A DNA stretch of 64,000 nt from Brevinematales bacterium. GTDB lineage: Bacteria; Spirochaetota; Brevinematia; Brevinematales; Thermospiraceae. The stretch spans positions 124,001-188,000 of the forward strand of contig JAOADA010000003.1 in assembly GCA_026417555.1 (NCBI GenBank), written 5' to 3'. The position numbers were made by a program, and so were the translations under genes. Under the pieces are notes generated by a model. It saw only the letters and a list, made by a program, of their open reading frames with translations. It was not told the DNA's origin and did not search any database. Position 1 is the first letter of the stretch, and each line of letters starts with the position of its first letter. This document shows, in pieces, positions 34,732-40,126 of the stretch.

Positions 34732-35772
34732 ATGAGAGAACTCCAAGAAAAATTCGAAGACGAATACTTTTCCCCTTACGGAACCAAAAGCAGTCAAAGC
34801 CGCGGAAGGAAAATTCCCGAACCCCAAGATGATATAAGAACAGAGTTCATGCGGGATCGGGACCGCATCATCCATAGCGAATCCTTTCGAAGACTCAAAC
34901 ACAAAACTCAGGTCTTCCTCTCACCGGCAAGTGATACCTTTCGCACCCGACTCACCCACACCCTCGAGGTTTCTCAGATAGCCCGTACCATTGCTCGTGC
35001 CCTTCGAGTGAATGAAGATCTCACAGAGGCCATTGCTCTTGGACACGATGTGGGACACACCCCATTTGGACACGCTGGAGAACGTATTATTCAGCGGTAC
35101 CTTGACCCTCATTTTAAACATGCCTCTCACAGCGTCCGTGTTCTCAATACCATAGAAAAAAACGGTCAAGGTCTCAATTTAACCCCTGAGGTATTAGACG
35201 GTATTGCTAAACATTCCAAGACAGGACAACAACCTATCCTCTGGTCAGAAAAAGACAAGCCCCTCACCATCGAAGGTCAAATTGTTCGCCTCGCCGACAT
35301 CATTGCTTATGTGAACCACGACCTTCAGGACGCTCTCGCATCAGGACTTCTTGAAGAAAAGGATATTCCTCATGATATTCTAAAAATTCTGGGAGAAAGT
35401 CACTCAGCCAGAATCAACACCCTCGTACGAGATGTCATCGCTCATTCCCAGGACAGTCCCGAAATCCGCACCAGTGAACCTATCCTCACTGCCCTCCACA
35501 CTCTCCGTGCCTTTCTCTTTGAGAGCGTCTACACCCACGAAGAACTCCAAAAAGAGATGAAAAAGGCTGAAAATATTCTCCTTGCCCTCTTGGAAGACTT
35601 TGAAAAACGCCTAGATAAAGGAGAACCTCTTCCTTCTCCTGTCCATATCCCCCTCTCAACAAACAAAAAACAAACTCTCATTGATTGTCTGGCTTTCATG
35701 ACAGACACAGAGGCCATGCGAATATTTTACCAGACTTACATTCCCAAATCCTTTAGCTGGGGGACGCGATGA
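34732..35772 (+). CDS. dgt: Deoxyguanosinetriphosphate triphosphohydrolase-like protein
   Basis: A protein of about 346 residues of the HD superfamily. The family start RDRDRIIHSESFRRLKHKTQVF is followed by the HD metal motif: RLTHTLEVSQIAR (His), then GHDVGHTPFGHAGE (His-Asp). RLADIIAYVNHDLQDAL is the later conserved region. The enzyme class removes triphosphate from dNTPs and controls the dNTP pool. Two start codons are possible (34720 and 34732); I favour 34732 because GGAAGAG precedes it. It overlaps the phosphatase gene by 4 nt and is the first of four coupled genes. Confidence 0.93.
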   Translation: MRELQEKFEDEYFSPYGTKSSQSRGRKIPEPQDDIRTEFMRDRDRIIHSESFRRLKHKTQVFLSPASDTFRTRLTHTLEVSQIARTIARALRVNEDLTEAIALGHDVGHTPFGHAGERIIQRYLDPHFKHASHSVRVLNTIEKNGQGLNLTPEVLDGIAKHSKTGQQPILWSEKDKPLTIEGQIVRLADIIAYVNHDLQDALASGLLEEKDIPHDILKILGESHSARINTLVRDVIAHSQDSPEIRTSEPILTALHTLRAFLFESVYTHEELQKEMKKAENILLALLEDFEKRLDKGEPLPSPVHIPLSTNKKQTLIDCLAFMTDTEAMRIFYQTYIPKSFSWGTR

Positions 35773-37859
35773 TGTGGCTCAATCTCTTCTTCGCCATCGT
35801 TTCCACCTTTCTCATCCTCTTTCTTTTGGATTACATCAAAAACGTTTACAAGACGGAAGTGCTTCTTGAGCAACTTTTTGATCAATTTCTTCGTCTGGAA
35901 GCCCGGGCCACCTACGCTGAACAAGAAATGTACGAATACCTTGGAGGGCGACTTGGCAAGGCCTTTTTCACCCAAAACTGTCTTGTCTATGTCCGAGCCA
36001 AAGAAAAATTCTTTCTCAAATATCAAGCCATGCCTCATCCTTTGTGGCCTAAACTTCTTCGTCGTAATCTTGCCCTCCAAGAGGACCCCGCTATCCTTGG
36101 TCGAGATATCACAAAAGGCATCCTCAGCGAAGGCTTTTACACTGCCTATTTTCGAAAAAAAGCCTTCCGCACCCTGATCATTCCCGTCAAAAACACCAAT
36201 GGCAAGGTCATTGGTGTACTCATCTTCTTTTATTTCTCCCTGATTGCCTACCTTCGTGCTCTCAAATACCTCAAGCTCAATGCCTCAAAACTCCATGATT
36301 TTCTCAAACACCTCTTCATCATCATGCGCGAATACGCCATGGATTTTAAAAATATCACCATCAACCAAATCAAAGACTATGCTATTCTCATTACAGACCC
36401 CAATACTCACATCCTCTACGCCAATAATGGAGCCCTTTTTCTCCTTGGAATACCCAGTGAAAACCTCCTCAAGGGAAAATCCTTCCTCTCTTTCATCCAT
36501 AACGACTCCATTGATCAGTTTCAGATTCTCTTGCAAAATCTTCAGACCATGGGAGAAACCAAAGGCCATCTCGATCTAAACGTTCGTTCTCATGAGGAAC
36601 GCCAAACGATCCACACACAAGCCTACCTCAAGGCTATCTCCCTGGAAGATGAGTTTATGGGAATGTACATTCTTCTCCACGATATTACCAACGAAGAGAT
36701 CCTGCTCCAAAACATGAAACGCCTCTCCGCTATTGCCAACAGTCTTTTCAGCCATTCTGATGACGCCATCTTTCAAGTGTCTGGAGACAACCGAATCATC
36801 CGCAGTAACTCCAAAGCCCAATTGCTGTGCGATCAAGATATGCCTCTCCAGGGACAATTCTTCGGTCATCTTTTTCCCTCTCCCCTTCAAAAAAAGCTCA
36901 ACCAACTCTTGGATGAAACCAAAACCACACGCTCTTTCAAAGAGCACACAGAGATTCAATTCAAAAATCGATGGTACAATGTGCGCACCTTCCCCGTTTT
37001 CGTGGAAGATTCATACGATAGTAGTATTATCACTTTTGTTGATATTACAGACATCAAACTTCATGAAGAAAAACTCACTGCAATTACAAGGCAGATGCTT
37101 GATGATCTCAACGCTGCTAAGACACTCCAGTATGAACTTCTTCCAGAGACAACTCCCCTTTCCGAGATTGTATATTATCAGCATCTCTTTCAACCTTGTG
37201 AAGAATTGGGAGGAGATTTTTACTATATTGAAGAAGTCTCTATCGAAGGAAAACCCTACCATCTCATTGTAGTCGCTGACGTGGCTGGACATGGGATCTC
37301 CGCTGCCATGCTCACGGTCTTGGTGAAGGATGTGTACACCGCTTTTCGAAAGTCCCTCGTCTCCCAAGAAACCATTCTTCCCAACCGTTTCCTTGATATG
37401 CTCAATGAGAGGCTCTCAAGCCTTGAAATGTCTACTATGCCTTTTGTCGCTGTCTATATGGGCATCCTGGATATCGAGACCAGAGAGTTTTTCTATTCGA
37501 GTGGGGGTATCCCCTTTGCTATACGTCTCAATTCCAACCATGAGATCAGTTTCTTGGGCATCGAAAAATCTCCTCCTACCGGTTTTCAAAGTGGTTTTTC
37601 CTACCGGTATGACAAGGTCACCCTTCACAAAGATGATCGTGTCATTATCTACACGGATGGTATCGAAGAACTCCTTTCGTTCTACAACACCTATTTGAAT
37701 AACATCATTATGGAAAATCGACACTCTTCGATAACCACTTTCAAGGATATCCTCACCCAGAAGATTGAAGATTTCTATACCCAGCATCATCACACCCGTT
37801 ACAGACAAGACGATGTCACAGTTGTCCTTTTTCAGATACTTCAAGAGAGAGGAGAATAA
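35769..37859 (+). CDS. Membrane-anchored PP2C (SpoIIE-type) phosphatase with PAS domains
   Basis: A 696-residue phosphatase. An N-terminal transmembrane helix (about 3-22) is followed by a short sensory region (about 30-170, with a second hydrophobic stretch near VIGVLIFFYFSLIAYL at about 140). PAS-type domains lie at about 190-310 and 320-430 (DYAILITDPNTHILYANNGALFLLGI; DDAIFQVSGDNRIIRSNSKAQ). A coiled linker leads to the PP2C domain from TLQYELLPETTPL at about 455. Catalytic motifs are CEELGGDFYYIE, VVADVAGHG, SSGGIPFAI, DRVIIYTDGIEE and RQDDVTVVLF. It overlaps dgt by 4 nt and the next gene by 1 nt. Its partner switch protein is not seen here. Confidence 0.9.
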   Translation: MMWLNLFFAIVSTFLILFLLDYIKNVYKTEVLLEQLFDQFLRLEARATYAEQEMYEYLGGRLGKAFFTQNCLVYVRAKEKFFLKYQAMPHPLWPKLLRRNLALQEDPAILGRDITKGILSEGFYTAYFRKKAFRTLIIPVKNTNGKVIGVLIFFYFSLIAYLRALKYLKLNASKLHDFLKHLFIIMREYAMDFKNITINQIKDYAILITDPNTHILYANNGALFLLGIPSENLLKGKSFLSFIHNDSIDQFQILLQNLQTMGETKGHLDLNVRSHEERQTIHTQAYLKAISLEDEFMGMYILLHDITNEEILLQNMKRLSAIANSLFSHSDDAIFQVSGDNRIIRSNSKAQLLCDQDMPLQGQFFGHLFPSPLQKKLNQLLDETKTTRSFKEHTEIQFKNRWYNVRTFPVFVEDSYDSSIITFVDITDIKLHEEKLTAITRQMLDDLNAAKTLQYELLPETTPLSEIVYYQHLFQPCEELGGDFYYIEEVSIEGKPYHLIVVADVAGHGISAAMLTVLVKDVYTAFRKSLVSQETILPNRFLDMLNERLSSLEMSTMPFVAVYMGILDIETREFFYSSGGIPFAIRLNSNHEISFLGIEKSPPTGFQSGFSYRYDKVTLHKDDRVIIYTDGIEELLSFYNTYLNNIIMENRHSSITTFKDILTQKIEDFYTQHHHTRYRQDDVTVVLFQILQERGE

Positions 37860-39139: not shown

Positions 39140-39213
39140 TTTTGTATATTTTTGTAGACAAAAAATTCTTTTGTATTTTTTTGTATACAAAACGCATACT
39201 TATGTATACAAAA
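39140..39213. promoter_or_regulatory. Phased TTTTGTA/TACAAAA operator-like sites
   Basis: Five TTTTGTA-type half-sites occur, starting at about 39140, 39150, 39169, 39179 and 39200 (the last is TTATGTA). They are 10, 19, 10 and 21 nt apart, so near one face of the helix. The site at 39179-39192 is the perfect 14-bp palindrome TTTTGTATACAAAA. The site at 39149-39164 is TTTTTGT-AG-ACAAAAA. They lie about 90-165 bp upstream of the sigma-54 GC box at 39304, the usual place for an activator (enhancer) binding region. Confidence 0.65.
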
Positions 39214-39289
39214 GTTTACACAGGGTTTTCTATAAAAATAAACGTTGTCTCATTTCTTTATTTCAAAATAAAATAGAAGGATATACTTT

Positions 39290-39307
39290 TTGGCACACTT
39301 CTTGCTT
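39290..39307 (+). promoter_or_regulatory. Sigma-54-type -24/-12 promoter
   Basis: TTGGCAC (39290-39296), 5 nt, TTGCTT (39302-39307). The GG at 39292-39293 and GC at 39304-39305 are separated by exactly 10 nt, the defining sigma-54 spacing. It drives the sigma factor gene at 39329 with a leader of about 10-15 nt, which is predicted to include the GGAGG ribosome site. No vegetative -10/-35 pair with proper spacing was seen nearby. Confidence 0.8.
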
Positions 39308-39328
39308 AAGTAAAAGCGGAGGTAGCCT

Positions 39329-40126
39329 ATGAAAGAATACCGTATACTCCATCAATATCTCAAAGAAATAGGGCGTTTTCCTCTTCTCTCAGCCGAAGAG
39401 GAAAAAGATCTTGCCAAACGAGTTCTCGAGGGGGACACTCAGGCTAAGAAAAAGCTTATCGAAAGCAACTTGAGACTGGTTGTCAAGATTGCCATAGAAA
39501 TGCATCAAGGGAGAATGCCCCTCATGGATATCATCCAAAATGGCAATCTTGGACTTATCCGAGCGGTAGAGAAGTTTGACTACAGGAGAAACATCCGTTT
39601 CTCAAGCTATGCTGCCTACTGGATCAAACAAAGTATCCTTCGTCATTTTCAGGAGGATGGTCATCTGGAAAACATCTCTGCCCGTCTTCAAGAGAAGAAA
39701 CGCCAAATCCGACGTTTCATTGAGAGTTTTTTTGTTCAAGAAAGCCGTCTTCCTTCTGCCCAAGAACTCTCCCAGGCCATGTCGCTTTCCCTTTTTGAAG
39801 CCGCTCAAGAGCTCAAGGCCTATCAGCCACAGATATGTGAAAAACCCCCCTCCTTGCTTGAGGATATCCCCGACACAACCCATATTGAAAGCCTCATCTG
39901 TGACCAGTGTCTTTCTGAAGATCTTGAAAACACCCTCCAAACCCTTGATGAAGAATCCAGAAAGCTTCTTCAGTGGCGCTATGGCTTTGAAGGGGAAGAA
40001 TGTGCCACGCTTTCGGAAATTGCTGAAAAACTTCATATAACTGCAGAAGGAGTACGTCAGAGAGAAAACCGTCTTCTTGCTCTCCTCCGTGACAAAAATC
40101 CCTCTCTCAAATACTACCTTGCCTAA
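39329..40126 (+). CDS. RpoS-like alternative sigma factor of the sigma-70 family
   Basis: A 265-residue sigma factor of group 2 type. Region 1.2/2.1 is visible (YLKEIGRFPLLSAEEEKDLAKRVLEGD, NLRLVVKIAIEM). Regions 2.3-2.4 are MDIIQNGNLGLIRAVEKFDYRRNIRFSSYAAYWIKQSI, typical of -10 recognition. Region 3 is short and region 4 is RKLLQWRYGFEGEECATLSEIAEKLHITAEGVRQRENRLLALL. Length is close to Borrelia RpoS, whose gene also has a sigma-54 promoter, and shorter than RpoD. The start has GGAGG at the right distance. A strong terminator follows, so it is a single-gene unit. Which genes it controls is not visible. Confidence 0.85.
   Translation: MKEYRILHQYLKEIGRFPLLSAEEEKDLAKRVLEGDTQAKKKLIESNLRLVVKIAIEMHQGRMPLMDIIQNGNLGLIRAVEKFDYRRNIRFSSYAAYWIKQSILRHFQEDGHLENISARLQEKKRQIRRFIESFFVQESRLPSAQELSQAMSLSLFEAAQELKAYQPQICEKPPSLLEDIPDTTHIESLICDQCLSEDLENTLQTLDEESRKLLQWRYGFEGEECATLSEIAEKLHITAEGVRQRENRLLALLRDKNPSLKYYLA

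Follow-up and report, generated by a model that had tools for sequence, protein, structure and literature searches.

The window, that is the whole stretch of 64,000 nucleotides analysed here, carries on its plus strand a gene for a sigma-70 family factor, with a sigma-54 promoter directly in front of it and three palindromic repeats further upstream. The features of this locus are as follows.

39143-39160, no strand: enhancer site 1 (putative), TGTATATTTTTGTAGACA, two mismatches to TGTATAC-N4-GTATACA, with positional equivalents in G002 (L296) and G001 (L298)
39172-39189, no strand: enhancer site 2 (putative), TGTATTTTTTTGTATACA, two mismatches to TGTATAC-N4-GTATACA and an exact match to the core GTAT-N8-ATAC
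39203-39220, no strand: enhancer site 3 (putative), TGTATACAAAAGTTTACA, one mismatch to TGTATAC-N4-GTATACA, 88 bp before the -24 element
39290-39307, plus strand: sigma-54 promoter, with -24 element TTGGCAC, spacer ACTTC and -12 element TTGCTT, conserved before clade A orthologues (clade A is described below)
39317-39328, plus strand: predicted 12-nt 5' leader, with +1 placed at about 39317 from the -24/-12 numbering; it holds GGAGG at 39318-39322
39329-40126, plus strand: gene for a clade A (Borrelia-RpoS-type) sigma-70 family factor of 265 aa, assigned from the ORF, from Pfam, NCBIfam and PDB matches and from trees

Direct reading of the sequence bore out the GG-N10-GC within TTGGCAC-N5-TTGCTT that an earlier note on this DNA had described. 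The -24 element occupies 39290-39296, the spacer 39297-39301 and the -12 element 39302-39307, and the gap between GG (39292-39293) and GC (39304-39305) is exactly 10 nt. All 11 positions of the sigma-54 consensus (TGGCAC-N5-TTGCW, GG at -24 and GC at -12) are matched. On both strands of the 64-kb window, the 39290 promoter is the single exact match to TGGCACN5TTGC; when one mismatch was allowed, 6 matches were obtained against 2.5 expected. In the whole genome TGGCAYN5TTGC was found 16 times versus 5 times for the reversed pattern, so that a lone consensus match is weak proof of a promoter; it is the comparative evidence across loci that places the 39290 promoter far above chance. The distance between the promoter GC and the sigma gene's start codon is 23 nt. 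Taking GG as -25/-24 and GC as -13/-12, by the sigma-54 convention, the transcript is predicted to start at about 39317, which would give a leader of about 12 nt. In the same genome, sigma-54 sites also lie before the genes for glutamine synthetase III, for an ammonium transporter and for an HSP20 protein, and before two alpha-amylase-like genes (L109, L112, L106, L110, L113).

The gene behind the promoter starts with ATG, and Pfam detected sigma-70 regions 1.2, 2 and 4 in its product; together with the GGAGG, this agrees with the 265-residue sigma-70-family gene reported there before. The top PDB matches by sequence were SigA and RpoS chains, and the protein is a group 2-type sigma factor. 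Its top NCBIfam model was proteobacterial RpoS (TIGR02394), with 170.7 bits against a curated cut-off of 378.7, which rules out that it is a proteobacterial RpoS. The description "RpoS-like" is thus right insofar as the protein groups with Borreliaceae RpoS in the tree, and wrong if membership of the proteobacterial family is meant. In the window's order, the IRxP segment that follows region 2.4 (region 3.0) is replaced, as in LENISARLQEKKR; recognition of the extended -10 may therefore differ even from that of other clade A factors. A PAS-SpoIIE phosphatase gene, a possible candidate for a partner-switch regulator, is located at 35769-37859 of the window on the same strand as the sigma gene, from which it is separated by two ORFs and a 270-bp spacer.

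When named genomes were scanned with the sigma alignment, nearly all matches were Firmicutes SigA. Homologous sigma genes were gathered from up to 393 genomes of Spirochaetota, with start codons picked by Shine-Dalgarno sequence and ATG, and a tree of 61 proteins was built with IQ-TREE. The window subfamily and Borreliaceae RpoS formed a first clade (clade A, support 100/99), inside which Borreliaceae RpoS was nested; a second clade (clade B) was supported at 99/95. Constraining Borreliaceae RpoS to clade B lowered the log-likelihood by 24.7 units, but the AU test did not exclude this topology (p 0.103), so that the placement in clade A is strong but not closed. Region 4.2 provided an independent character in agreement with this placement: clade A, including Borreliaceae, mostly has S-(P/A/S)-E-T, while T-(R/K)-E-R is found in RpoD, E. 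coli RpoS and clade B. The window protein reads ITAEGVRQRE and the Borreliaceae proteins ISSETVRQIE, both without the two arginines of RpoD TRER. The genus also has, in G002 and G001, a second sigma gene, which belongs to clade B and likewise has a sigma-54 promoter (L039, L045); no counterpart of it was found in the assembly of the window organism. These clade B loci share a different repeat, TGTGTCATTTTGATAC in L039 and TGTGTCATTGTGATAC in L045.

Promoter sites were scored against the 11 consensus positions. With at least 9/11 matched, 10-120 nt from the start, a sigma-54 site stands before 82 of the 91 genes of clade A; these represent 32 of its 34 families and include all nine Borreliaceae rows. 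In clade B such a site was present in 26 of 50 cases. Family f36, whose rpoD maps near 750 kb and whose second sigma factor maps near 810-820 kb, as in B. burgdorferi, presumably represents Borreliaceae; the site is present at each of the ten rpoS loci of this family, for example TTGGCAC-AATTT-TTGCAT. For the first 90 sigma loci, 40 sites matching at least 10/11 positions were counted in the 9,709 bp upstream (110 nt before each start), versus 3 in 265,714 bp outside these regions on the same strand and 2 in 275,423 bp of the other strand. The upstream density was thus about 360 times that elsewhere on the strand, and about 100 times when at least 9/11 was required (51 versus 14 sites). None of five spirochaete RpoD loci had a site of at least 9, and one was detected in 1 of 79 non-spirochaete sigma-70 controls, the other match (L201) being itself a Spirochaetales MAG. 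These results indicate that the GG-N10-GC before the ortholog, which had been proposed as a check, is conserved across the phylum and in Borreliaceae.

Among the clade A exceptions, L269 and L283 showed no recognisable promoter, and four genes from genomes that we provisionally call T. denticola-like, as well as L279, had a TAGCA variant at the same position. At the four T. denticola-like loci (L050, L056, L290, L291) the -24 element before the clade A sigma gene is TAGCAC or TAGCAT, not TGGCAC. The RpoN DNA-binding domain of these genomes gave an unusually low score, and the two peculiarities possibly reflect a co-evolved promoter specificity.

Activator-binding sites of sigma-54 promoters are commonly found about 100-150 bp upstream. 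The other two genomes of the genus have three copies of the palindrome in the same layout as in the window, the last one 88-90 bp before the -24 element. Phylum-wide, the core GTAT-N8-ATAC usually begins about 90-120 bp before this element. Of 73 clade A promoters outside Borrelia, 25 have an exact copy of it upstream, where dinucleotide shuffling gave a mean of 0.30 and a maximum of 2, and 45 have one with at most one mismatch (shuffle mean 7.2, maximum 14). Over the 73 loci, the spacing of GTAT and ATAC half-sites showed a peak at 8 only. Because shuffles do not remove all relatedness, we repeated the count with one locus per family, and obtained 9/31 exact copies versus 0.11 expected and 18/31 versus 3.0 with at most one mismatch. 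No enhancer within one mismatch was detected at 28 of the 73 loci, none at the nine Borreliaceae rpoS loci, and no exact copy at spacing 8 before clade B sigma genes. The T. denticola-like genomes have TGTATACAAAAATATACA, a sequence that is also one of the copies in the window's genus; this exact enhancer and the TAGCA variant promoter rule out that these genomes are devoid of the system. When the 393 genomes were scanned for the enhancer combined with a sigma-54 promoter, 36 modules were found, most of them in front of sigma genes, while the reversed pattern gave 2. The enhancers, absent from the earlier note, set the cascade proposed here apart from that of Borrelia.

In the window organism's own genome, the palindrome with at most one mismatch occurs in two places only, before the sigma gene and before lpxC, where a second sigma-54 promoter follows at a distance of 86 bp. 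The lpxC palindrome is 86-88 bp before the -24 element in all three genomes of the genus. In the scan of the 393 genomes the full module preceded lpxC twice, and in seven genomes of five families (L348, L351, L362, L365, L366, L367, L368) it preceded the gene for a multi-pass membrane protein of about 200 aa. This protein had no match in Pfam (six scanned), NCBIfam (three scanned) or PDB; its GDGxASLxGK...GKTxEGS motifs recall CTP-dependent lipid kinases. The presence of the module before both genes suggests an envelope-lipid role for the circuit. Control of the bacterial exterior has been proposed as a general function of sigma-54, Borrelia being named as a case in which it acts through sigma-S (PMC3162934).

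A cascade of this kind depends on rpoN and on NtrC-family activators, for which the earlier note had suggested a search. In the organism's own assembly (2.04 Mb, 98% complete), a single rpoN is present, whose absence the note would have counted as a refutation, and its product has the full set of three domains. The assembly also encodes four sigma-54 activators, each with an intact GAFTGA.

L100:6993-8369 (G000:C22): response regulator, Rrp2 orthologue according to the activator tree
L100:10286-11644, contig 22: NtrX-like response regulator, adjoined by a HAMP/HisKA kinase gene
Near rpoN: receiver-less activator of 363 aa
Divergent from glutamine synthetase III: GAF-domain activator

In a tree of activators from eleven genomes (the organism's own, eight relatives and two Borreliaceae), Borrelia Rrp2 grouped with one protein from each genome, L100:6993-8369 included. 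Type IV pilus-type genes adjoin the latter and no kinase gene is adjacent to it; its identification as PilR-like from these neighbours was ruled out by the tree. Rrp2 is the sole activator group present in all ten genomes compared, including G035, and its members share a well-conserved recognition helix. On account of this co-occurrence, of the conserved helix and of the absence of an NtrX-like protein from G035, the Rrp2 orthologue is likely to be the activator that reads the enhancer. A weak match to the RpoN DNA-binding domain, with two stops, was seen at G002:C8:106676-106993, about 2 kb from the G002 sigma gene, and is perhaps a pseudogene or noise.

The same cascade might nevertheless be driven by another NtrC-family activator, above all the NtrX-like protein, which has an adjacent kinase and is present in 8 of the 10 genomes compared, or the receiver-less 363-aa protein, encoded close to rpoN. 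NtrYX has moreover been tied to envelope genes in Rhodobacter, but no NtrX site was found before lpxC there (PMC7240162). G035 has an exact enhancer, yet none of its four activators is NtrX-like; outside the window's order no member of the receiver-less group was found, and it is the Rrp2-group recognition helix that is conserved, as is the enhancer. We therefore consider such a substitution unlikely, if worth keeping in mind, and retain the Rrp2 orthologue.

The promoter, the enhancer repeats, their conservation, rpoN, the activators and the relationship of the sigma factor can all be read in the sequences, and from them we infer the activity of the promoter, the activator that binds, the signal and the targets of the sigma factor. 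The element TTGGCAC-N5-TTGC (39290-39307) would hold RNA polymerase with RpoN in a closed complex. The three palindromes at 39143-39220 would be bound by a hexamer of an NtrC-family activator, most probably of the Rrp2 orthologue (G000:C22), which would touch the polymerase through DNA looping and open the promoter upon activation of its receiver domain. The sigma factor produced from 39329-40126 would then redirect the polymerase to its own regulon. Borreliaceae would have kept the activator, RpoN, the promoter and the sigma factor, and lost the enhancer.

The RpoN-to-RpoS cascade that had been conjectured for this organism is thus supported by rpoN, the activators, the conservation of the promoter and the grouping with Borreliaceae RpoS. 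The further conjecture that the cascade is older or more widespread than the Borrelia case is likewise supported by the promoter in 32 of 34 clade A families, Borreliaceae included. As the same promoter and enhancer stand before relatives throughout the phylum, the circuit appears to be an old spirochaete one and not a Borrelia invention. We consider it highly probable that a cascade of the RpoN-to-RpoS type is ancestral in Spirochaetota and that its enhancer was lost in Borreliaceae. With less assurance, we also favour a wider proposal, in which an Rrp2-type activator acting on GTAT-N8-ATAC would control RpoS-type sigma factors and envelope-lipid genes (lpxC in this genus, the membrane protein of about 200 aa in five other families) throughout Spirochaetota. 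The Lyme virulence cascade would then be a reduced relic of an envelope-stress circuit, and its loss of the enhancer would account for the action of Borrelia Rrp2 in the absence of a DNA site.

Convergence, in which the promoter is real and clade A factors and Borrelia RpoS gained sigma-54 control independently, would be in line with sigma-54 control of sigma-70-family genes in several phyla (PMC12316311), with the frequent sigma-54 sites of the sister clade B (26/50) and with the AU p of 0.103. However, the promoter stands at the same position in 32 of 34 clade A families, and Borreliaceae RpoS is nested in clade A and has its region 4.2 motif, which makes independent gains quite improbable. 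A chance GG-N10-GC, the gene being driven by a conventional sigma-70 promoter within the AT-rich spacer, is barely conceivable: the genome-wide background is indeed above zero (16 versus 5 reversed), but the site is conserved at the level of genus, order and phylum and stands at a fixed distance from the enhancer, and the comparison of loci, non-spirochaete controls included, rules out a chance origin.

The RpoN-RpoS cascade of Borrelia is treated as a hallmark of that genus, and its enhancer-less activation is recognised as anomalous. Should the cascade be ancestral and as a rule depend on an enhancer, it would have had its original role in free-living spirochaetes, where it probably served envelope homeostasis; the anomaly and the part played in Borrelia virulence would then both be derived states. 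The DNA site read by Rrp2-type activators, missing so far, would also be predicted, and could be tested directly in harmless relatives.

In our literature search, which covered mainly freely accessible papers, the cascade was described in Borrelia only, and neither the enhancer nor the conservation was reported. A 2025 survey of sigma-54 regulons notes in a general way that sigma-70-type genes can be under sigma-54 control (PMC12316311), Borrelia RpoS was assigned in 2019 to a broad position among diverse homologues (PMC6719511), and a 2025 review describes Leptospira as lacking RpoS (PMC12655853). The sigma-54 exterior regulons (PMC3162934) resemble our case in that an envelope gene, here lpxC, is under sigma-54; however, a term search of that text gave no mention of Treponema or LpxC and one of spirochetes, and no report of the enhancer, of the clade or of spirochaete-wide conservation. 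With proteobacterial RpoS (TIGR02394), its best NCBIfam match, the window protein shares the architecture of group 2 sigma-70 factors (regions 1.2, 2 and 4), but E. coli RpoS falls outside clades A and B, and TRER of region 4.2 is replaced in the window protein. Among the closest systems is also Rrp2-RpoN-RpoS of Borrelia burgdorferi: the tree and region 4.2 mark the two sigma factors as orthologous, their sigma-54 promoters have the same form, and the window organism likewise has rpoN and an orthologue of Rrp2. The Borrelia system differs in that the window organism has three palindromic enhancers, where Borreliaceae have none, and four activators versus Rrp2 alone in Borrelia (PMC11109971). 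The GC-to-start distance is 23 nt here versus 57-67 nt in Borreliaceae, predicting a much shorter leader, and in the window's genus, unlike in the Borrelia cascade, lpxC has the same enhancer. The absence of the enhancer from Borreliaceae matches what has been reported for Borrelia, where no specific binding of Rrp2 at rpoS could be demonstrated and a minimal promoter is enough in culture (PMC3037356). The RpoN-RpoS cascade itself is known, and what is apparently new is its enhancer-driven, seemingly ancestral form.
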